Part shown: positions 12,645 to 33,010 of the stretch, one piece after another
Layout: each line of letters starts with the position of its first letter
How positions within the stretch are numbered: position 1 is the stretch's first letter
Assembly (NCBI RefSeq): GCF_022763305.1
Contig: NZ_JALEGT010000064.1
Span: 1 to 34,885, forward strand
DNA: 34,885 nucleotides
Origin: Marivita sp.
Lineage (GTDB): Bacteria; Pseudomonadota; Alphaproteobacteria; Rhodobacterales; Rhodobacteraceae
Direction of reading: 5' to 3'
Program-made: the position numbers and the translations under genes
Notes under the pieces: generated by a model
The model's database searches: none
Seen by the model: the letters and a program-made list of their open reading frames with translations, nothing else
Told to the model about the DNA's origin: nothing

Positions 12645-12660
12645 TTGGACGAAGGTCCAA
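12645..12660. promoter_or_regulatory. Perfect dyad in the permease/NosR divergent promoter
   Basis: TTGGAC-GAAG-GTCCAA is a perfect 6-bp inverted repeat with a 4-base spacer, centred in the 77-bp gap between divergent genes. It contains GAC-N4-GTC, the same core as the sites before pedH and between pedF and pedA1, but lacks their TAC left flank. Confidence 0.55.
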
Positions 12661-16637: not shown

Positions 16638-19013
16638 TTATTGGCCGTTGATCGCCGCCCAGACGCGCGAGGGCGACACGGGCATATCGATGTGGTTGAC
16701 GTGGGTGTGACCGCCCGAATGCAGCGCGTCGATCACCGCGTTGACCACTGTCGGCGGGGACCCGATGGCTCCGGCCTCGCCGCAGCCCTTCACGCCCAGC
16801 GGGTTGTGGGTGCAGGGGGTCTGGCAGGAATGGTCGACCACGTAGTTCGCCATATGCGGGATGTCGTCGGCGCGCGGCATGGCGTAATCCATATAGGATG
16901 CGCTGAGCAGCTGGCCGTTCTCGTCATAGGCGCAGTTTTCCAGAAGCGCCTGGCCGATGCCCTGGGCGATGCCGCCATGGACCTGGCCTTCGACGATCAT
17001 CGGGTTCACGACATTGCCGAAGTCGTCCGCCGAAACGAACTTCTCGATGGTGACCTTGCCGGTGTCCGGATCGACCTCGACCTCGCAGGCATAGGCGCCT
17101 GCCGGGTAGGTGAAGTTGGCCGGATCGTAGAAGGCGGTTTCCTCGAGGCCCGGTTCGATCTCTTCCAGCGGGTAGTTGTGCGGCACGTAGGCGGCGAGTG
17201 TCACATCTCCCCAGGCGACCGACTTGTCGGTGCCCGCGACGGTGAACTTGCCGTCCTTGAGCTCGATATCGCTGTCGGAGGCTTCGAGAAGGTGGCCGGC
17301 GATCTTCTTGGCCTTGTTGATGATCTTTTCGGTGGCGCGCACCATGGCCGAGCCGCAGACCGCCAGCGAGCGCGAGCCATAGGTGCCCATGCCGAAGGGA
17401 ATCTTCGAGGTGTCGCCATGGACGATGTCGACCATCGACTCGTCGATGCCGAGCATTTCCGCCACAACCTGCGGGAACACGGTTTCATGTCCCTGCCCGT
17501 GGCTGTGTGCGCCGACCATCACCGAGATGGAGCCGGTGGCGTTCACCCGGACGGTGGCCGCGTCATAGAGACCGGCGCGGGCGCCGAGCTGACCGACGAG
17601 GTTCGACGGCGCGATGCCGCAGGCTTCGATGAAGCAGTTGACGCCGAGACCACGCAGCTTGCCGTTCTTCTCGGACTCGGCGCGACGTGCGGCGAAGCCC
17701 GGGATGTCCATCAGCTCTTCCATCTTGGCCATGGTCGCTTCGTAGTCGCCGGTGTCGTATTCGACGGCGACGGGCGTGGCATAGGGGAATTGCGTGATGA
17801 AGTTCTGACGGCGCAGCGCGATCGGGTCGACGCCCAGTTCACGCGCGGCCTTGTCGATCACACGCTCGAGCTGGAAGGTCGCTTCGGGGCGGCCGGCACC
17901 ACGATAGGCGTCCACAGGGACGGTGTTGGTGAAGACGGCCTTCACGTTCACCTGCACCGCGGGGGTCTTGTAGTTGCCCGCCATCAGCGTGCCGTGGAGC
18001 CATGTCGGCACCGAGGACGAGAAGGTCGAGAGATACGCGCCCATATTGGCCAGCGTGTCGGTGCGGACCGCGAGGAAGTTGTTGTCCGCGTCGAGCGCCA
18101 GTTCGATCTTGGTCACGTGGTCGCGGCCATGGGCATCGGACATGAACGCCTCGGAGCGGGTCGAGGTCCACTTGACCGGACGGTTGCAGGCCTTGGCGGC
18201 GAAGGTACAGAAGGCCTCTTCCGCATAGTGGAAGATCTTGGTGCCGAAACCGCCACCCACATCGGGCGCCACAACGCGCAGCTTGTGCTCGGGGATGCCC
18301 AGAACGAAGGCACCCATCAGCAGGCGGATCACGTGGGGGTTCTGCGACGTGGTGTAGAGCGTGTGCTCGTCATTGGCGCGGGAATAGTCCCCCACCGCAA
18401 CGCGCGGCTCCATCGGGTTGGCGACGAGGCGGTTGTTCACCAGTTCCAGCGTCGTCACATGGGCTGCGTTCTTGAACGCCGCATCCGTGGTCGCGGTGTC
18501 CGTGCCGAACTGCCAGTCGTAGCAGAGGTTGTCGGCCAGATCGTCATGCACCTTTGTGGCGCCAGACTGCAGCGCCTTGGCCATGTCAACGACCGCCGGC
18601 AGCTCTTCGATGTCGACGACGATGGCCTCGGCCGCGGTGCGCGCCTGTTCAAGGCTGTCGGCCACAACGGCGGCGATGGGATCGCCCACATGGCGCACCT
18701 TGCCCTGCGCGAGCACGGGATGCGGCGGTTCCTTCATCGGATCGCCGTTCTTGTCGGTCACCTGCCAGCCGCAGGGCAGACCGCCTACACCTTCAAAATC
18801 CTTGCCGGTGAAGATGCGCACGACGCCCGGCATGCCTTCGGCGGCGCTGGTGTCAATGCTGTTGATCTTGCCATGCGCCATGTCGGAGCGCAGGAAGTGC
18901 ACATAGGCTTGGCCATGTACGTTGATGTCGTCGGTATAATTGCCGGCACCCGTCAGGAAGCGGACGTCTTCGCGCCGCTTCTGGCTTGCGCCGATGCCAT
19001 GATCCTTCGGCAT
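16638..19013 (-). CDS. coxL: Molybdopterin large subunit, form II CO-dehydrogenase-like (aldehyde oxidase type)
   Basis: The 791-aa molybdenum-hydroxylase large subunit starts at ATG 19013 behind GGAGGAGAATAAT; the frame extends to a TTG at 19028 that overlaps this ribosome site. The active-site loop reads AYRGAGR (369-375), the form II signature, not the AYXCSFR with the catalytic Cys of true (form I) CO dehydrogenase. The catalytic Glu is Glu746 in GCGEAGAIGSPP. Mo-cofactor contacts such as DVGGGFGTKI (251-260) are present. Form II enzymes have not been shown to support CO oxidation in marine roseobacters, and an aldehyde or other carbonyl substrate is more likely. No coxD/E/F maturation genes are next to it. 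Confidence 0.9.
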   Translation of the reverse strand: MPKDHGIGASQKRREDVRFLTGAGNYTDDINVHGQAYVHFLRSDMAHGKINSIDTSAAEGMPGVVRIFTGKDFEGVGGLPCGWQVTDKNGDPMKEPPHPVLAQGKVRHVGDPIAAVVADSLEQARTAAEAIVVDIEELPAVVDMAKALQSGATKVHDDLADNLCYDWQFGTDTATTDAAFKNAAHVTTLELVNNRLVANPMEPRVAVGDYSRANDEHTLYTTSQNPHVIRLLMGAFVLGIPEHKLRVVAPDVGGGFGTKIFHYAEEAFCTFAAKACNRPVKWTSTRSEAFMSDAHGRDHVTKIELALDADNNFLAVRTDTLANMGAYLSTFSSSVPTWLHGTLMAGNYKTPAVQVNVKAVFTNTVPVDAYRGAGRPEATFQLERVIDKAARELGVDPIALRRQNFITQFPYATPVAVEYDTGDYEATMAKMEELMDIPGFAARRAESEKNGKLRGLGVNCFIEACGIAPSNLVGQLGARAGLYDAATVRVNATGSISVMVGAHSHGQGHETVFPQVVAEMLGIDESMVDIVHGDTSKIPFGMGTYGSRSLAVCGSAMVRATEKIINKAKKIAGHLLEASDSDIELKDGKFTVAGTDKSVAWGDVTLAAYVPHNYPLEEIEPGLEETAFYDPANFTYPAGAYACEVEVDPDTGKVTIEKFVSADDFGNVVNPMIVEGQVHGGIAQGIGQALLENCAYDENGQLLSASYMDYAMPRADDIPHMANYVVDHSCQTPCTHNPLGVKGCGEAGAIGSPPTVVNAVIDALHSGGHTHVNHIDMPVSPSRVWAAINGQ

Positions 19014-19110
19014 ATTATTCTCCTCCAAGTTGCGGAACGCTCTTCAAGCCTGTCGGCTTTCTTCGCGAAGACACCCCGGACAGGGGTGGATGAGCGGTAC
19101 GTGTTCTGAA

Positions 19111-19596
19111 TTATTCGGCTGCGACTGCGGGCACGTCCTGACCGCTTGCCGCCATGATGGCGCGCACGATGTTGTGGTATCCGGTGCAACGGCAGATATT
19201 GCCTTCGAGGTAGTCCCGGACTTCCGCCTCGGTGGGCTTGGGATTTTCCTTGAGCAGCGCGGCCGCCGACATCACCATGCCTGGCGTGCAGAACCCGCAC
19301 TGAAGACCGTGGTAATCCTGGAAGGCCTGCTGGATCACGCTGAGCGATCCGTCCGCATTGGCCATGCCTTCGATCGTCTTGACCTCGGCGCCGTCGGCTT
19401 CGGCGGCAAACATGGTGCAGGACTTCACGGCCTCACCGTTCACATGCACGACACAGGCGCCGCACTGGGACGTGTCGCAGCCGACATGGGTTCCGGTCAG
19501 GCGCAGGTCCTCGCGCAGGAATTCGGTCAAGAGCGTGTTGCCCTTCACCTCGCCGGAAACGGTCTTGCCGTTCACCGTCATTGTTACCTTCGTCAT
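19111..19596 (-). CDS. coxS: [2Fe-2S] small subunit of form II CO-dehydrogenase-like hydroxylase
   Basis: The 161-aa iron-sulfur subunit has a plant-type ferredoxin cluster (Cys40, Cys45, Cys48, Cys60; [10 protein letters not shown]) and a second cluster (Cys100, Cys103, Cys135, Cys137; CGFCTPG and ICRCTGY), the standard arrangement of the family. It starts at ATG 19596 behind GGGAGGAG. The 97-bp gap to coxL holds a perfect TCTTCGCGAAGA palindrome (19060-19071). The S-L-M gene order is that of form II operons. Confidence 0.93.
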
Positions 19597-19650
19597 CTAA
19601 CTCCTCCCGTGGGTATTCAAATTCAACTGTGTTTCAGAAGCTTGGGGCAA

Positions 19651-20175
19651 TCAAGAAACGAGTTTCTTGAACCAGCCCTTTTTCTTTCCTTCGCCGTCGC
19701 CACCCTCGTCCGGGGCATCGCCCTCGGCATCCTGCGGGCCTTCGACGACAGACTGGAAATTGGTGAAGAACTGATCGGCCATCTTCTTGGCGAAGCCGTC
19801 GATGATGCGGCTGCCCAGCTGCGCCAGCTTGCCGCCGACCTTGGCTTCGACATCGTAGTGCAGCTCCGTGCCACCCTCGACCGCCTTCAGTTTGACATCG
19901 GCCCCACCCTTGGCAAAGCCGGCCGCCCCGCCCTTGCCTTCGCCGGTCAGCGTCAGCGACTCGCCCGGCACCATGTCCGACAGCACGACGGTGCCCTGGA
20001 ACGTCGCCTTCACCGGTCCGACCTTCTGCACGACGGTGGCTTCAAACCCCTCTTCGGCAGAGCCGCTCATTTCGGTGCAGCCGGGGACGCATTGCTTGAG
20101 CACTTCAGGATCGAGGATCGCCGCCCAGACCTCTTCGGGGGTGGCAGCAATCGTGCGGGAATCGGTCATCTGCAT
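19651..20175 (-). CDS. coxG: CoxG-like SRPBCC protein
   Basis: The 174-aa protein has a START/SRPBCC fold (residues about 1-145; SRTIAATPEEVWAAILDPEVL near the start) and a short acidic linker ending in a basic, aromatic tail (KKKGWFKKLVS) that could attach to the membrane. CoxG is known to help recruit CO dehydrogenase to the membrane. Two possible ATGs (20175, 20169) sit behind AAGGATCAC. A perfect dyad CAAGAAAC-GA-GTTTCTTG (19652-19669) covers its 3' end and may stabilise or end part of the mRNA. It is the first gene of the cox run. Confidence 0.85.
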   Translation of the reverse strand: MQMTDSRTIAATPEEVWAAILDPEVLKQCVPGCTEMSGSAEEGFEATVVQKVGPVKATFQGTVVLSDMVPGESLTLTGEGKGGAAGFAKGGADVKLKAVEGGTELHYDVEAKVGGKLAQLGSRIIDGFAKKMADQFFTNFQSVVEGPQDAEGDAPDEGGDGEGKKKGWFKKLVS

Positions 20176-20259
20176 GGGTGTGATCCTTCTTTGGAGGTCA
20201 GCCTAGGGTGTTGAACCCCCGGGGCATATAAGACCAATGGCTTAACATGTTGGTGAAAG

Positions 20260-21163: not shown

Positions 21164-21862
21164 TCAGTGTGCAGCAGACAATCCGATGGTCAAGGCCTCG
21201 GCGGCCCGGGCATAGGCGTCTTCCGTACCGTCGATGATATTGGCTGCGCGGAAGGCCGCGCTGTCGGCCACCGGTGCCCCGGAGACGGTTTCGATACCGG
21301 CCGCGATTTCGCTCAGACGGGCCTTGAGCGCGTCCGCATCCGCCGCCGACGCATCGGTCGCATAGCCCGCGATCTGGTCGCGCAGCGCCTTGAGCTCGTC
21401 TGCCACCTCTTCCATGGACACATCATCGGGGCGCGTTTCGATATAGGTGCGGATGGCCCAGGCCGCGTCCTGCCCCAGCAATTCGCCGAACTCCGGCATC
21501 TTGGTGATCCCGTTCTGCGTATAGCCGAACCGGAAGCGTTCGATGAACCATTCGTCGCCATATTCCTCGGCTTCGAGGAAGCGCACATCGGGGGCGAGGC
21601 CGCCGGAGATCGCCTCGAGGCCATGGCAGCGGGCGCAGTTCTGGTTGTAGCCGGACGCCCCGATCTCGACCGCGCGGGCCCAGACCTCTTCCCCGGCCGC
21701 TTCGGCGCGATAGGGGTTCTCGGTCAGCCACTCGTCGCCGGTGGCCGGAAGGCCGGTGGTGTCGACGGCCTGCGGGGCCACGTCGCCATGCGCGTGAACC
21801 AGGCTGGCGGCGGCTGTCAGCGCAAGCGCGGCGCAGGTGGATTTGAAGAATGTCGCGGTCAT
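21164..21862 (-). CDS. pedF: Cytochrome c-550, PedF type (electron acceptor of PQQ alcohol dehydrogenase)
   Basis: The 232-aa periplasmic monohaem cytochrome c starts at ATG 21862 behind GAGGAGGACCACC; the longer frame lacks family resemblance. It has a signal peptide (cleavage after about residue 24, LVHA-HG), the PedF-like stretch GDVAPQAVDTTGLPATGDEW (26-45), and the haem motif C76-A-R-C79-H80 inside YNQNCARCHGLEAISGG. A later Met in KMPEFGELLG can serve as sixth ligand. In Pseudomonas PedF takes electrons from PQQ ethanol dehydrogenases. The gene is first in a minus-strand pair with the XoxJ/PedG-like gene, and a TACGAC-type operator lies upstream. Confidence 0.87.
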   Translation of the reverse strand: MTATFFKSTCAALALTAAASLVHAHGDVAPQAVDTTGLPATGDEWLTENPYRAEAAGEEVWARAVEIGASGYNQNCARCHGLEAISGGLAPDVRFLEAEEYGDEWFIERFRFGYTQNGITKMPEFGELLGQDAAWAIRTYIETRPDDVSMEEVADELKALRDQIAGYATDASAADADALKARLSEIAAGIETVSGAPVADSAAFRAANIIDGTEDAYARAAEALTIGLSAAH

Positions 21863-21972
21863 GGTGGTCCTCCTCAGGCACAGTCTCGTGTCTTGCCGGA
21901 TGTGTACCGAGGCCAGGTCGGTGCGGGTATTGGACTTTCGTGGCGCGACAGCGGGATTCCGGCCCCGGACGC

Positions 21973-21991
21973 ACTGGACCATGGTCGTATT
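21973..21991 (-). promoter_or_regulatory. TACGAC-type operator between pedF and the pedA1-like gene
   Basis: On the minus strand this reads AATACGACCATGGTCCAGT, with core GAC-CATG-GTC at 21977-21986. It matches the first site before pedH (AATACGACCAAAGTCCTGT) at 15 of 19 positions. It lies 111 bp from the pedF start and 51 bp from the divergent pedA1-like start, so it could serve both promoters. Confidence 0.65.
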
Positions 21992-22041: not shown

Positions 22042-23220
22042 ATGAAGACATCACGTCTTGCGTGTGCACTTGCGTCCGTTCTGACGGTCGGCATCGCCAC
22101 GTCCGCCATGGCGGAAGTTGCGGTGAACATCCATTATCTCAAGCAGGTTCTCGAAACGCCGCCCACCCTGTCCAATCTCGATCCGATCCCCGAGGACCTG
22201 GGGATGGTCGGGGCGGAACTGGGCCTGCAGGACAACAGCACGACCGGCCGGTTCCTGGGCCAGACCTACGCGCTGACCGTGACCGAGGTCTACGAGGGCG
22301 AGGATTTCGCCGAAGCCGTGCGCGCGGCCCTCGCGGAAACCGACCTGCTGGTGCTGGATGCCGGGACCGACCAGATCCTGCAGGCCGCCGACCTGCCCGA
22401 AGCGGCGGGCGCGCTTCTGTTCAATTCCGGCTCCGGCGACGCGGCGCTGCGCGGTACCGGGTGCCGGGCGCGGCTGTTACACACCCTGCCCTCGGACGCG
22501 ATGCGGGCCGATGCGCTGATGCAGTTCTTCGTCACCCGGCGCTGGGACGAGATCGCGCTGATCGCCGGAGACCGCCCCGACGATCAGGCCTGGGCCGACA
22601 CGCTCGAGGCCTCGGCGCGCAAGTTCGGGCTGTCCTTCGGCGCGCGCAAGACCTGGGTCTTCGATGCGGACATGCGCCGCAACGCCTCGCAGGAGGTGCC
22701 GCTCTTCACGCAGGACCTGGGCGACTATGACGTTCTGCTGGTGGCGGACGCGGCCGATGATTTCGCGCGCTACATTTCCTACAACACCTGGCGGCCCCGC
22801 CCCGTCGCCGGGTCCGAAGGGCTGCGCCCGGTGGCCTGGCACCGCGTCGTGGAACAATGGGGGGCCGCGCAGCTGCAATCCCGCTTCGAGAAACTGGCCG
22901 AGCGCCCGATGCTGGACCGCGACTACGCCGCCTGGGCCGCCATGCGCGCCATCGGCGAGGCCGTCACCCGCACCGGTGCCGCCGATGCCGAGACGCTGCG
23001 CAGCTTCATGCTCTCGCCCGACTTCGAACTGGCGGGCTTCAAGGGCGCGCCGCTCACCTTCCGCAGCTGGAACGGCCAGCTTCGCCAGCCGATCCCGCTT
23101 GTGCAGGAACGCGCGCTGGTCGCACAGGCCCCGCTGGAAGGCTTCCTGCACCAGCGCACCGAGCTTGACACGCTGGGCCTCGACCAACCCGAAAGCGGCT
23201 GCACCGCGTTCGACAACTGA
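22042..23220 (+). CDS. Periplasmic binding protein of PQQ-dehydrogenase-linked ABC system (PedA1-like)
   Basis: The 392-aa protein has a signal peptide (cleavage near SAMA-EV, about residue 24) and a branched-chain amino-acid-binding-protein fold, as in the family named for ABC transporters of PQQ alcohol dehydrogenase systems. ATG 22042 follows AAGGGAGGAACC. In Pseudomonas putida the PedA1A2BC transporter is needed for growth on the lanthanide-dependent enzyme PedH at low lanthanide; I match this gene to the binding protein of that system. It leads the plus-strand operon with the beta-propeller, cupredoxin-like, ATPase and permease genes. Whether the ligand is a metal, a chelate or PQQ-related is unknown. 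Confidence 0.8.
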   Translation: MKTSRLACALASVLTVGIATSAMAEVAVNIHYLKQVLETPPTLSNLDPIPEDLGMVGAELGLQDNSTTGRFLGQTYALTVTEVYEGEDFAEAVRAALAETDLLVLDAGTDQILQAADLPEAAGALLFNSGSGDAALRGTGCRARLLHTLPSDAMRADALMQFFVTRRWDEIALIAGDRPDDQAWADTLEASARKFGLSFGARKTWVFDADMRRNASQEVPLFTQDLGDYDVLLVADAADDFARYISYNTWRPRPVAGSEGLRPVAWHRVVEQWGAAQLQSRFEKLAERPMLDRDYAAWAAMRAIGEAVTRTGAADAETLRSFMLSPDFELAGFKGAPLTFRSWNGQLRQPIPLVQERALVAQAPLEGFLHQRTELDTLGLDQPESGCTAFDN

Positions 23221-26443: not shown

Positions 26444-26460
26444 TCTACGACCATCGGTCG
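26444..26460 (+). promoter_or_regulatory. TACGAC-type operator before the Sel1 gene
   Basis: TCTACGACCATCGGTCG shares TACGACCA with the ped sites and has a GAC/GTC dyad with a 5-base spacer instead of 4. It lies about 40 bp before the Sel1 gene, right after pedC. It is weaker evidence than the sites at 21973, 31091 and 31125. Confidence 0.4.
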
Positions 26461-26496
26461 GGTGATCTTGGGGCCTTGTTGCGCTAGGGTTGCGAT

Positions 26497-28742: not shown

Positions 28743-28761
28743 AATACGACCAAAGGATGTG
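28743..28761 (+). promoter_or_regulatory. TACGAC-type half operator between binding protein and cytochrome genes
   Basis: AATACGACCAAAGGATGTG shares its first 13 bases (AATACGACCAAAG) with the first pedH site but lacks the right half GTC. It lies in the divergent gap, 86 bp before the cytochrome start. Confidence 0.5.
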
Positions 28762-28847
28762 GGCCAAGGTCGCATCTCTTGATGTGGATCATATTGGCGG
28801 ATTTCGGGTGTTCCTACGCTGGGACATCTTATTGAAGGAGACCACCG

Positions 28848-29258
28848 ATGACCCGTTTTGCCCTGATCGCAGCCGCCACTGTCTGCGCCCTGCCCGTCTT
28901 TGCCAGCGAGACCACCTTCGAGCAGGTGAAGATCGACGCGGGCAAGACCCTTTTCGAAGCCGAATGCCGCCGCTGCCACGCGGTCGAGCCGACGGATGCG
29001 TCCTACGGCCCGCCCTTGGAGAACATCGTCGGGCGCGGTGCTGGGACCTATCCGGATTACGACTATTCGATTGCTTTGGAGGCCTCGGGCATCGTCTGGA
29101 CCCCGGCGGCCCTGCGCGCGTGGATGGAGGACAATGACGGCTTCATGCCCGGCACCAAGATGCGCCATGTCGGCATCGAGGACCGCACGGTGCAGGATTT
29201 CATCCTGTCCTATCTCGTGTCGATCACGACGCAGGACAATTCGGCGATTTCGAAGTGA
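28848..29258 (+). CDS. Small periplasmic cytochrome c (class I)
   Basis: The 136-aa monohaem cytochrome has a signal peptide (cleavage near VFA-SE, residue 20), haem motif C40-R-R-C43-H44 and a C-terminal Met ligand region (GFMPGTKM). ATG 28848 follows GAAGGAGACC. Its size suits a c2/cL-like carrier. It may pass electrons from PedH or PedF to the oxidase; this is inferred from context and the shared operator sequence. Confidence 0.88.
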   Translation: MTRFALIAAATVCALPVFASETTFEQVKIDAGKTLFEAECRRCHAVEPTDASYGPPLENIVGRGAGTYPDYDYSIALEASGIVWTPAALRAWMEDNDGFMPGTKMRHVGIEDRTVQDFILSYLVSITTQDNSAISK

Positions 29259-29539: not shown

Positions 29540-30715
29540 ATGTACCCGCAGCCTTTGGAAATCACGGGCCTTGCCGGTTCTGTCGGGTTCGGCGGTATGA
29601 ACCGGTATGCAGATGTCTCGCAAGTTACTGATTTGATAAATCTTAACCTTGTTTACAAACCTTCCTACAGAAATGCCTGCGCCGCACAGGGTCTTCTGGA
29701 CGGTTTTGGCGAATTAAAACCGGATATCCCCGAATACGCTCCTGGCGGAGGGGGACAGTATGACTTGCCGAACCTCAACGAAGCGATCCGCCAGTTTCAG
29801 ATCGTTGGAATGGGACGGAACCAAAGCTGGGCCGATGCCAGAGTCGACCCAAATGGACAAACCTGGAAATCACTCTTGGGCACGCTGCCTTCTGGACACA
29901 TTCCGCCCAATTCATTGCCTGCACCAACAGGGCGTATGCGCGGAATCCACAACGGATTTGCCATCTTTAGCCAGGGTGATTTCCGTGAGCTCTTGGGACA
30001 TCGATGGGACTCGAACGGTGACAAGGTAGTCAACGAGTACGATGCTTGGGCGCATTTGAACGAAAAAGGGTGCTGTCTGACCGTAATCACCATGGCAGCG
30101 ACAAAACTGGGAAAACCTCAGTCCTGTTGGCCGAAAGGCCTGTTGCCAAAGAACTTATCACCGTCTGATGTGAACAAGATCGCTCTGAATAACCAAGGCT
30201 ATAGCGAATTTGGTGGCTTGATGACAACCCGGGTGCCTATGCTGCTCGGAATGAAGGCTCAGCGCTACGGTTCCCATTACAAAGAGCCACTGCCTCTACC
30301 GGTTGACGGATTTATCGACAGCATTCTGAATGCTGGGCACGCTGTAGCCGCGCATGTTGACTACTCTGGATCCTCACGCGGAGATCATTGGGTCCTGATC
30401 ACAAACAAAGTGCAAAGTGGTCTGAAGGCCTATGACGCCATTGATCCCTCAGGTGGCTACGTCATGGGGTTCTCAAAAAACATGAATGCCCGTGAGTTGG
30501 CATATGAAAACACCGCAACGGCGCGTGATGCCAAGATCAAAGCAATACAGGAGGCTAATAAGACGGCTAAGAAAAAGGCAAAGGTTCCAGAACCCTATAA
30601 TTTTCAGATGGGGCACCTTTGGGGGATGGCTGCACCAAACGCATCGCATAGCCGCAAGGAGAAACAAAACAAGTACCGTCTTGTTGGTTTGATTACTCTC
30701 ATGAGGACCGACTGA
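29540..30715 (+). CDS. Peptidoglycan-binding/C39-like cysteine peptidase protein
   Basis: The 391-aa protein starts behind AAGGAG and has no signal peptide. Residues about 10-112 resemble a divided peptidoglycan-binding repeat (SVGFGGMNRYADVSQVTDLI, then AIRQFQIVGMGRNQSWADAR, VDPNGQTWKSLL), as found in cell-wall hydrolases and contractile-injection effectors. Residues about 165-310 look like a C39-like papain-fold peptidase: Cys178/Cys179 (KGCCLTVITM), His283 (RGDHWVLI) and Asp302 (YDAIDPSGG). The C-terminus is Lys-rich. The gene is lower in GC than its neighbours and seems acquired. A role as a secreted cell-wall amidase/peptidase or antibacterial effector is plausible; no immunity gene is seen beside it. 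Confidence 0.65.
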   Translation: MYPQPLEITGLAGSVGFGGMNRYADVSQVTDLINLNLVYKPSYRNACAAQGLLDGFGELKPDIPEYAPGGGGQYDLPNLNEAIRQFQIVGMGRNQSWADARVDPNGQTWKSLLGTLPSGHIPPNSLPAPTGRMRGIHNGFAIFSQGDFRELLGHRWDSNGDKVVNEYDAWAHLNEKGCCLTVITMAATKLGKPQSCWPKGLLPKNLSPSDVNKIALNNQGYSEFGGLMTTRVPMLLGMKAQRYGSHYKEPLPLPVDGFIDSILNAGHAVAAHVDYSGSSRGDHWVLITNKVQSGLKAYDAIDPSGGYVMGFSKNMNARELAYENTATARDAKIKAIQEANKTAKKKAKVPEPYNFQMGHLWGMAAPNASHSRKEKQNKYRLVGLITLMRTD

Positions 30716-31090: not shown

Positions 31091-31108
31091 TACGACCAAA
31101 GTCCTGTC
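31091..31108 (+). promoter_or_regulatory. pedH upstream operator, site 1
   Basis: TACGACCAAAGTCCTGTC, core GAC-CAAA-GTC at 31094-31103, preceded by AA. It repeats as site 2 with its core 34 bp further on. The pair is typical of response-regulator sites upstream of an activated promoter. Confidence 0.65.
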
Positions 31109-31124
31109 AACCTCCCAAAGGTCT

Positions 31125-31142
31125 TACGACACAAGTCGCGTA
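31125..31142 (+). promoter_or_regulatory. pedH upstream operator, site 2
   Basis: TACGACACAAGTCGCGTA, core GAC-ACAA-GTC at 31128-31137. It is partly palindromic (TACG ... CGTA). Its right end overlaps the expected -35 position, as in activator-dependent promoters. Confidence 0.65.
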
Positions 31143-31162
31143 CAACGCGCATCCGTTATCCC

Positions 31163-31168
31163 TATACT
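31163..31168 (+). promoter_or_regulatory. Putative pedH -10 element
   Basis: TATACT fits a sigma-70 -10. The -35 position 17 bp upstream (31140-31145) reads GTACAA, a poor match that touches operator site 2, consistent with activation by a bound regulator. The 5' leader would be roughly 65 bases. Confidence 0.5.
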
Positions 31169-31240: not shown

Positions 31241-33010
31241 ATGAACAGATTTGTTGCCGCCGTCACAGCCAGCATCATCGCCGCGACAGGCGCCTTTGCT
31301 CAGGGTGTGACCGAGGACATGCTGGCGAATGACCAGACGATGACCAATCAGGTCGTCACCAACGGGATGGGGCGGCATCTGCAGCGCTATTCGCCGCTGG
31401 AGACGCTGAACAAGGACAACGTCAAGAACCTTGTTCCGGCCTGGGCGTTCAGCCTTGGTGGCGAAAAGCAGCGCGGTCAGGAGACGCAGCCGCTGGTCTA
31501 TGATGGCATCATGTACATCACCGGGTCGTATTCGCGTCTTTACGCCATCGACGTGAACACGGGCGAAGAGGTCTGGCAGTACGATGCCCGTCTGCCCGAG
31601 GGCATCCTGCCCTGCTGTGACGTGATCAACCGCGGTGCCGCTCTGGCGGGCGACAAGGTGATCTTCGGCACGCTCGACGCGCGGATCGTGGCGCTCGACG
31701 CCAAGACCGGCGATGTTGTCTGGCGCGATCAGATCAATGATTACAAGGCGGGGTATTCCTACACGGCGGCTCCGCTGGTCGTTGGCGATCTTGTGATCAC
31801 CGGCAACTCGGGCGGCGAGTTCGGTATCGTCGGATCGGTGCAGGCGCGCAACATCGAGAACGGCGACCTCGTGTGGGAACGTCCGGTGATCGAAGGCCAT
31901 ATGGGCATGCTCAATGGCGAAGAAAGCACCATGACCGGCACGCTCAATGCGACATGGCCGGGCGACATGTGGAAGACCGGCGGCGGCGCCACATGGCTGG
32001 GCGGATCGTATGACGAGCGCACCGACACGCTGATCTTCGGCACCGGCAACCCGGCTCCTTGGAACAGCCACCTGCGCGGTGCGGGCGTTCCGACCGACGG
32101 CAATACGGGCGACAACCTCTATGCCGCATCGCGGATCGGCATCGACCCGGCGACCGGCGAGATCAAGTGGCACTACCAGACCACGCCGCGCGAAGGCTGG
32201 GACTATGACGGTGTGAACGAAGTGGTGGCCTATGACGGTCGCGACGGATCGCAGCGTCTGGCCACGGCGGACCGCAACGGGTTCTTCTACGTGCTCAATG
32301 CCGCAGATGGCGGGTTTGTGGATGCCTATCCGTTCGTCAAGGACATCTCCTGGGCCAGCGACATCGACGACACTGGTCGCCCGGTCTTCATCGAGGACAA
32401 CCGTCCGGGTGATCCCACCGCGTCGGCCGATGGCAAGAAAGGCGATGTGGTCTTCTCGTCCCCCGGCTTCCTCGGTGGCAAGAACTGGATGCCGATGTCC
32501 TTCTCGCAGCGGACCGGCAACTTCTACGTGCCGTCCAACGAATGGGGCATGGACATCTGGAACGAGCCGATCACCTACAAGAAGGGTGCCGCCTATCTGG
32601 GGTCCGGTTTCACCATCAAGCCGAACTACGAAGACCATATCGGCTCTCTGAAGGCGATCAATCCGGACACCGGCGAATGGGTCTGGGAATACAAGAACGA
32701 CGCACCGCTCTGGGGTGGCGTGATGACCACGGCGGGTGGTCTGGTGTTCTTCGGCACGCCGGAAGGCAAGTTCCTCGCGCTGGACGACGAAACCGGTGAG
32801 GTTCTGTGGTCGTTCCAGACCGGCTCGGGCATCGTCGGTCAGCCGATCACCTGGGAACAGGATGGCGATCAGTATGTCTCGGTCATCTCGGGCTGGGGTG
32901 GTGCTGTTCCGCTCTGGGGCGGTGAAGTGGCCAAGAAGGTCAACTACCTGAACCAGGGTGGCACGCTCTGGACCTTCCGCCTGCCGAAAGAGCTGGCCTC
33001 GGCGAACTGA
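31241..33010 (+). CDS. pedH: PQQ-dependent alcohol dehydrogenase, lanthanide type (PedH/ExaF-like)
   Basis: The 589-aa periplasmic quinoprotein starts at ATG 31241 behind GGGAGGAATACGA; the longer frame is not part of the protein. The signal peptide ends near AFA-QG (residue 20). Beta-propeller W-motifs such as [10 protein letters not shown] run throughout. Key residues are the vicinal disulfide Cys125-Cys126 ([10 protein letters not shown]), Glu193, Asn270 (GTGNPAPWN) and catalytic Asp321, with Asp323 two residues on (GWDYDGVNE). That second Asp is the mark of lanthanide-dependent enzymes; calcium types have another residue. The sequence around the active site follows the ethanol dehydrogenase group (ExaF/PedH), not XoxF. 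It oxidises primary alcohols to aldehydes and donates electrons to cytochrome c (PedF here). Regulation by the two upstream operators is inferred. Confidence 0.9.

Follow-up and report, generated by a model that had tools for sequence, protein, structure and literature searches.

AgmR is a LuxR-type regulator, and NosP is a FIST protein. In Pseudomonas, AgmR (PedR1/ErbR) controls the ped/exa cluster, with the NosP-like PP_2663 and the NahK-like PedS1, as described in the available part of PMC12997753. In Paracoccus and Rhodobacter, FlhR-orf2-FlhS and AfdR/T/S and RfdR/T/S, respectively, control C1/formaldehyde genes, according to the accessible portions of PMC4776306 and PMC8879981. An operator has been described for CrbR of Pseudomonas fluorescens and other Gammaproteobacteria: the ACTU motif, whose acs copy (TACTACCATCGTCGAAT) lies at -52 to -36 and is needed for LuxR-type activation (PMC5715377, in the part available). 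The accessible text of PMC12997753 names no operator for AgmR, and the literature examined, itself partly accessible, names none for regulators of the AgmR or FlhR type, though one may have been described before.

The window (the whole stretch of DNA analysed, 34,885 nt, which is contig C96 in full and ~0.8% of the 4.43-Mb, 121-contig host assembly G000) carries ped-type PQQ-system genes with matches to TIGR03863, TIGR03866, TIGR03864, TIGR03861 and TIGR04494, the gene names being those of the earlier note. Another contig of the assembly, C55, encodes in one unit a response regulator with receiver and LuxR helix-turn-helix domains (PF00072 and PF00196), followed by a FIST protein (PF08495 and PF10442) and a kinase with PAS, HisKA, HATPase and receiver domains. 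The operator predicted in the window is, like the ACTU motif, an imperfect inverted repeat of comparable form and position, and CrbR's is the nearest described operator that was found. The CrbR system differs in that it controls acetate use via an SLC5-type kinase, whereas here alcohol-oxidation genes, a FIST protein and a NahK-like kinase are involved (PMC5715377, same portion). The likeness to AgmR lies in a PQQ alcohol dehydrogenase regulator whose gene clusters with those for a NahK-like hybrid kinase and a NosP-like protein. There, however, NosP-NahK acts through HptB on biofilm, as the accessible text of PMC12997753 has it, while here gene order and the site link the trio to pedH. The FlhR, AfdR and RfdR units, also from Rhodobacteraceae, likewise join a regulator gene to a middle gene and a kinase gene, with the three-gene order of C55 in the FlhR and AfdR units, a likeness drawn by description. 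Their named targets are flhA, fghA, mxa, mau and adhI (PMC4776306, PMC8879981, in the portions at hand), whereas no site was found before flhA in G000. Since the nearest operator is that of CrbR and the nearest regulators are AgmR and FlhR/AfdR, the site is classed as a LuxR-type operator and the C55 regulator as AgmR/FlhR-like, by description and not as a proven orthologue of either. An FlhR-like role would have led one to expect a site before flhA, yet none reaches score 7 in G000; within the genus, matches occur before flhA in 4 of 15 genomes (7.1, 8.1, 9.8 and 12.3) and the reversed matrix gives 1 of 15 (9.7). The gfa profile TIGR02820 had no match anywhere, controls included.

The predicted site is conserved, holds a fixed promoter position and recurs in a set of promoters, and the regulator gene co-occurs with pedH and often adjoins it. 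We consider it probable, on sequence grounds, that one LuxR/NarL-type regulator, most likely that of C55, activates a PQQ/lanthanide-type alcohol-oxidation regulon through these sites.

The central target gene encodes a pedH-like, lanthanide-type PQQ alcohol dehydrogenase (31241–33010, plus strand; TIGR03075, 746.8 bits against a cut-off of 480). Its best PDB matches are 6zcw and 6zcv (785 bits), which we take to be structures of PedH, followed by ExaA (656 bits) and XoxF (318–330 bits). The segment GWDYDGVNE aligns with GWDFDGVNE of PedH, as against AWDFSGNNE of ExaA; the Asp of this GWD(Y/F)DGVNE segment is presumably the extra metal-site ligand. The product is thus closest to PedH among solved enzymes and carries the additional Asp. 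An assignment to xoxF was dropped because the PDB comparison favours PedH (785 against 318–330 bits). The named records nearest to this pedH are a Rhodobacteraceae metagenome-assembled genome (94%) and Marivita (93 and 90%). Between the small cytochrome gene and pedH, a 391-aa reading frame (29540–30715) has no Pfam or NCBIfam match at E 0.001.

The earlier note had proposed that a LuxR-type regulator encoded outside the window acts on these promoters, and association lends support to this. A LuxR-type response regulator is encoded directly downstream of pedH in genomes G021, G022 and G032, and the C55 gene (6509–7171, minus strand) is the sole match to that subfamily in G000 at E 1e-30. Among 120 genomes of the family, pedH (E 1e-200) is found in 21 and the regulator (E 1e-50) in 44, including all 21 with pedH (Fisher P 1.4e-11, a statistic that ignores relatedness). 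At most the 24 best candidates were scored per genome in this survey, which makes absences less sure. The regulator gene lies directly downstream of pedH in 15 of the 21 pedH-bearing genomes and elsewhere in G000. It is also present, among the best 24 or fewer candidates scored per genome, in 23 of the 99 sampled genomes without pedH, so that it should have other targets too. In the 17 genomes of the genus, the near-complete G008 and G011 have none of pedH, pedF and the regulator, G006 has the regulator only, and the incomplete G001 combines pedF and the regulator but shows no full match to pedH.

The regulator's own promoter carries the site as well. In all 15 genus genomes that have the gene, TGAGACCTTTCG lies upstream of it, ~110 to 126 nt from the first matched codon. 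A site scoring at least 8 is found in 25 of 30 usable regulator promoters, 29 of these 30 being from other genera, by a matrix whose training included regulator sites of other genera. The remaining five (L286, L294, L300, L304 and L085) have no site down to a score of 7. Of the 28 promoters with a listed score for the reversed matrix, 5 attain 7 (7.0 to 12.3). Two truncated loci, L283 and L308, were left out of this count and of the regulator tree. The DNA-binding helix hardly differs between regulators encoded beside pedH and those encoded elsewhere, and the pedH-adjacent genes form no clear cluster in the tree (90 of 500 shuffles were as low). In a separate observation, another site lies at nt 2471–2483 of C55, the contig of the trio, in the gap before a thioesterase-like gene (also in L101).

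Alternatively, the operator may be real and be bound by a different LuxR-type protein, for instance one like CrbR/ErdR or PedR2, with the C55 trio serving another purpose. The best NCBIfam match of the C55 regulator is indeed the CrbR/ErdR model NF041830, at 167.5 bits below the cut-off of 390; the published CrbR motif is similar, and the 23 genomes with regulator and without pedH also suit this explanation. It is nevertheless unlikely, as G000 holds a single match to the subfamily at E 1e-30, the regulator gene adjoins pedH in most pedH-bearing genomes, and the site recurs in the regulator's own promoter. The best models of the kinase beside the C55 regulator are NahK/ErcS', both below cut-off (NF041831, 396.8 against 1500 bits; NF041832, 362.3 against 400).

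The geometry of the site bears on how it may work. Expectation-maximisation from random starts on 72 pedH upstream regions recovered the motif TACGACCATTGTGCAATACC de novo, with a fitted occurrence of 0.97 and a palindromic form TacGACcATgGTCgtA. The set derives from 80 loci, less L184 (no upstream sequence) and seven near-duplicates of the remaining 79. The full motif is longer than first described, about TAMGACCWWNGKNCAAT; its left half is strong and its right half weaker. It lies mostly 105–133 nt before the pedH start codon. When the best -10-like hexamer between offsets 28 and 49 from the motif start was taken, 57 of 64 family pedH promoters had a TATAAT-like hexamer beginning 39 or 40 nt from the motif start, and the -35 between them is not conserved. 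The fixed spacing together with the lack of a conserved -35 gives the geometry of a class II activator site. A short inverted repeat at the activator position near -42, common to functionally linked promoters above controls, is what a LuxR/NarL-type operator would look like, and both features are seen here.

In the window, site 2 of pedH (TACGACACAAGTCGCGTACA, nt 31125–31144, plus strand) is the predicted class II operator; it stands at the same place as the family motif TACGACCATTGTGCAATACC, and in Marivita hallyeonensis DSM 29431 it has the form TACGACCCAAGTC. The -10-like hexamer TATACT (nt 31163–31168, plus strand) starts 38 nt after the start of site 2, which places site 2 over the -35 position, as had been claimed. 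Site 1 (nt 31091–31106, plus strand), 34 bp before site 2, is an accessory upstream copy kept in 2 of 13 genus pedH promoters, those of G000 and G003; from this distribution it appears to be a lineage-specific extra copy. An inverted box (TAAGACCTTTGGGAGGTTGA, nt 31107–31126, minus strand; score 11.9 with the class-balanced matrix described below) overlaps site 2, its GGTCTTA abutting TACGAC, and scores 8.0 to 12.8 in the nine genus rows listed. The abutment of GGTC[TG]TA on TACGACC (GGTCKTACGACC, nt 31107–31127) occurs at the equivalent place in other genera too, and the two half sites sharing ends may leave room for a second dimer or another register. In a number of family pedH promoters a TGTCAA element also recurs ~20 nt before TACGACC, with little variation in position.

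A site over the -35 could also serve a repressor, and the boxes could act in repression or have a dual function, which has been proposed for RfdR of Rhodobacter sphaeroides. The related RfdRS is thought to repress adhI, in the part of PMC4776306 available. The fixed 39–40 nt to the -10 and the missing -35 conservation fit class II activation instead, and FlhRS, AfdRS and AgmR are described as activating in the accessible portions of PMC4776306, PMC8879981 and PMC12997753, so that repression seems distinctly improbable.

The earlier note had described the operator as TACGAC-N4-GTC, in tandem before pedH and once between pedF and the pedA1-like gene. Exact matches to this pattern (TACGACNNNNGTC) are found at just these three places of the window: nt 31091–31103 and 31125–31137 (plus strand) and nt 21977–21989 (minus strand). 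The weaker relatives that it listed, AATACGACCAAAG at 28743, TACGACCATCGGT at 26446 and TTGGACGAAGGTCCAA at 12645, are present as well. The bare pattern is not enriched. With two mismatches it occurs 78 times in the window against 81.7 expected from shuffles; genome-wide in G000, exact matches are rarer than those of the reversed control (13 against 33), as are matches to a 16-mer with one mismatch (39 against 109). Enrichment of the pattern by itself was thus rejected. Clustering is suggestive: 3 of the 13 exact genome matches fall within the window, where 0.10 would be expected (P 1.7e-4, post hoc, the pattern having been picked from the window), and so do 4 of the 39 one-mismatch 16-mers (0.31 expected, P 2.9e-4). 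As to equal frequency at random genomic positions, which the earlier note had named as one refuting outcome, the bare pattern is no commoner than its controls in window or genome, but 3 of the 13 exact genome matches lie on this contig. Given the missing enrichment, the bare pattern alone proves little. The independent evidence for the sites is their conservation, which, as read from the sequences compared, we regard as decisive.

For this, a matrix was trained on 65 sites (41 distinct) before pedH in other Rhodobacteraceae; the other 14 of 79 promoters lacked a site that met the identity filter, below which the genus loci L113–L116 fell. In the window its highest ranks are nt 21970 (16.7), 31091 (7.0), a coding position (6.5) and 31125 (5.0), and the reversed matrix has one match, of 8.3. 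Across the 80 loci (1.61 Mb), 109 matches score at least 14, of which 67 fall at pedH promoters, and the reversed matrix yields 3; with the threshold lowered to 10 the figures are 178, 71 and 17. A score of at least 8 is reached in 73 of 79 pedH promoters (6 lie below 8), 41 of 54 pedF and 41 of 56 pedA1 promoters, the last two counts not being independent since both genes flank one gap. The same holds for 12 of 35 cytochrome, 10 of 34 coxG, 12 of 51 regulator, 5 of 41 Sel1, 2 of 7 NMT1-type binding-protein and 2 of 6 permease promoters. By comparison, this score is reached in 0 of 337 cases for seven internal operon genes, 0 of 47 for SBP_bac_3 gene promoters and 1 of 30 for coxS, where the reversed matrix likewise gives 1; in every other promoter class the reversed matrix gives 0. 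NosR promoters gave 0 of 6, the reading frame having probably begun too far upstream, and in the scan of the 80 loci matches do precede NosR-like genes in L130, L143 and L180. When the 120 genomes were searched with the 20-mer at a tolerance of 3 mismatches, 18 of them contained 19 matches in all, and the reversed pattern had 3. These matches include the pedH promoter of G021 at least, and some others are probably chance.

A class-balanced matrix, trained without L113–L116, scores every site noted earlier above 10, the three weaker relatives included. At a score of at least 10 it gives 15 window matches, which fall at nine places. Six promoter gaps account for seven of these places, and the other two are coding (26856 and 1529). 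Thirty simulated windows had a mean of 2.9 and a maximum of 8, and the reversed matrix had two matches (15.5 and 10.5).

The strongest site in the window by both matrices is the predicted operator between pedF and the divergent pedA1-like gene, the distal site TACGACCATGGTCCAGTGCG (nt 21970–21989, minus strand). A weaker proximal site, CGCCACGAAAGTCCAATACC (nt 21926–21945, minus strand; class-balanced score 8.7), is conserved in the genus alignment and lies 44 bp downstream of the distal one, with the hexamer TACACA 39 nt after its start, counted by eye. The flanking genes are pedF, for cytochrome c-550 (21164–21862, minus strand; TIGR04494, 186.9 bits, cut-off 122), and the gene for the pedA1-like PQQ-system substrate-binding protein (22042–23220, plus strand; TIGR03863, 486.9 bits, cut-off 413.6), whose start was set at MKTSRL by inspection. 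The class-balanced matrix also added a site absent from the earlier note, TAAGCCATTGGTCTTATATG (nt 20225–20244, minus strand; 12.3), with TAGGCT 39 nt after its start. It precedes an operon (16638–20175, minus strand) of CoxG (19651–20175), CoxS-like (19111–19596) and CoxL-like (16638–19028) genes, with Pfam matches to COXG, Fer2/Fer2_2 and MoCoBD. A double site (nt 28745–28774; 28745 plus, 11.0, and 28755 minus, 10.9) occupies the gap between the NMT1-type binding-protein gene and the gene for a small cytochrome c-550-like protein (28848–29258, plus strand; PF00034; NF043008, 66 bits, below the cut-off of 240). The site before the Sel1-repeat gene is TACGACCATCGGTCGGGTGA (nt 26446–26465, plus strand; 12.9). 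The palindrome at nt 12645–12660 (13.5), in the permease/NosR-like divergent gap, recurs in L110, the only other genus row having that gap. Outside the window, a near-perfect palindrome, TACGACCAAAGTCGTA, lies at nt 52275–52290 of contig C87 (also in L014, ~8276), close before a gene that adjoins pyrC and matches DUF6647 weakly; it is a possible further target.

Within the genus, all 13 pedH promoters retain site 2 with its flanks and the pedF site is retained in 14 of 14 cases, while the surrounding sequence drifts. Non-conservation before orthologous pedH and pedF genes, which the earlier note had named as refuting its proposal, is thus not what is seen. All 9 genus rows retain AAATACGACCAAAGGATGTGG before the cytochrome gene and TACGACCAT before Sel1; before coxG, TTAAGCCATTGGTCTTATATGCC is identical in all 8 rows aligned. 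Besides the window, the nine rows comprise four loci of pedH relatives and four stretches from genus genomes; L111 and L116, on contigs of equal length, are identical in sequence and probably one strain, so that the distinct rows number 8 and 7 and not 9 and 8. A shared operator linking the alcohol-oxidation genes is strongly supported by this cross-species footprinting. Chance likeness among unrelated promoter sequences, to which the unenriched loose pattern and its choice from the window would lend themselves, is highly improbable given the training on other species, the 0 of 337 internal controls, the de novo recovery in 72 promoters and the block conservation in the genus, which refute it for site 2 of pedH and the pedF, coxG and cytochrome sites, and not for site 1 or the 12645 palindrome taken alone.

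PQQ synthesis seems to be missing in the genus despite pedH and pedF. PqqB was found in 1 of 15 and PqqE in 1 of 12 genomes searched, both in G005, where the PqqB match is in two pieces and below cut-off; pqqB is absent from G000. These genomes may scavenge the cofactor from outside.

In the mechanism that we propose, a phosphorylated dimer of the regulator would occupy TACGACC-N2-(weaker half site), with its centre near -42 and overlapping a poor -35. At pedH, the CoxGSL-like operon and the proximal pedF site, the bound dimer would bring in RNA polymerase by class II activation. Upstream copies, such as site 1 of pedH at 34 bp and the distal pedF site at 44 bp, would raise occupancy. We infer that the binding protein is the C55 regulator, which would control its own gene as well. 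The NahK-like hybrid kinase encoded beside it would phosphorylate it, with the FIST protein influencing this step. In Pseudomonas, a NosP-like FIST sensor and a NahK-like kinase are known from nitric oxide and biofilm signalling. It is possible, though doubtful, that in Rhodobacteraceae such a pair acts via an AgmR-like regulator directly on one operator that co-regulates pedH, the cytochromes, the transporter and the CoxGSL-like aldehyde oxidoreductase. If that were true, alcohol oxidation would answer to NO, heme or aldehyde sensing.

For lanthanide-type alcohol oxidation in a large group of mostly marine bacteria, our study provides a candidate operator, the promoters that it probably serves and a single candidate two-component system. 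In this marine bacterium, as in many relatives, the signal stands before alcohol-oxidising genes at the position where an activator would act, and gives a concrete handle on the control of lanthanide-type alcohol use.
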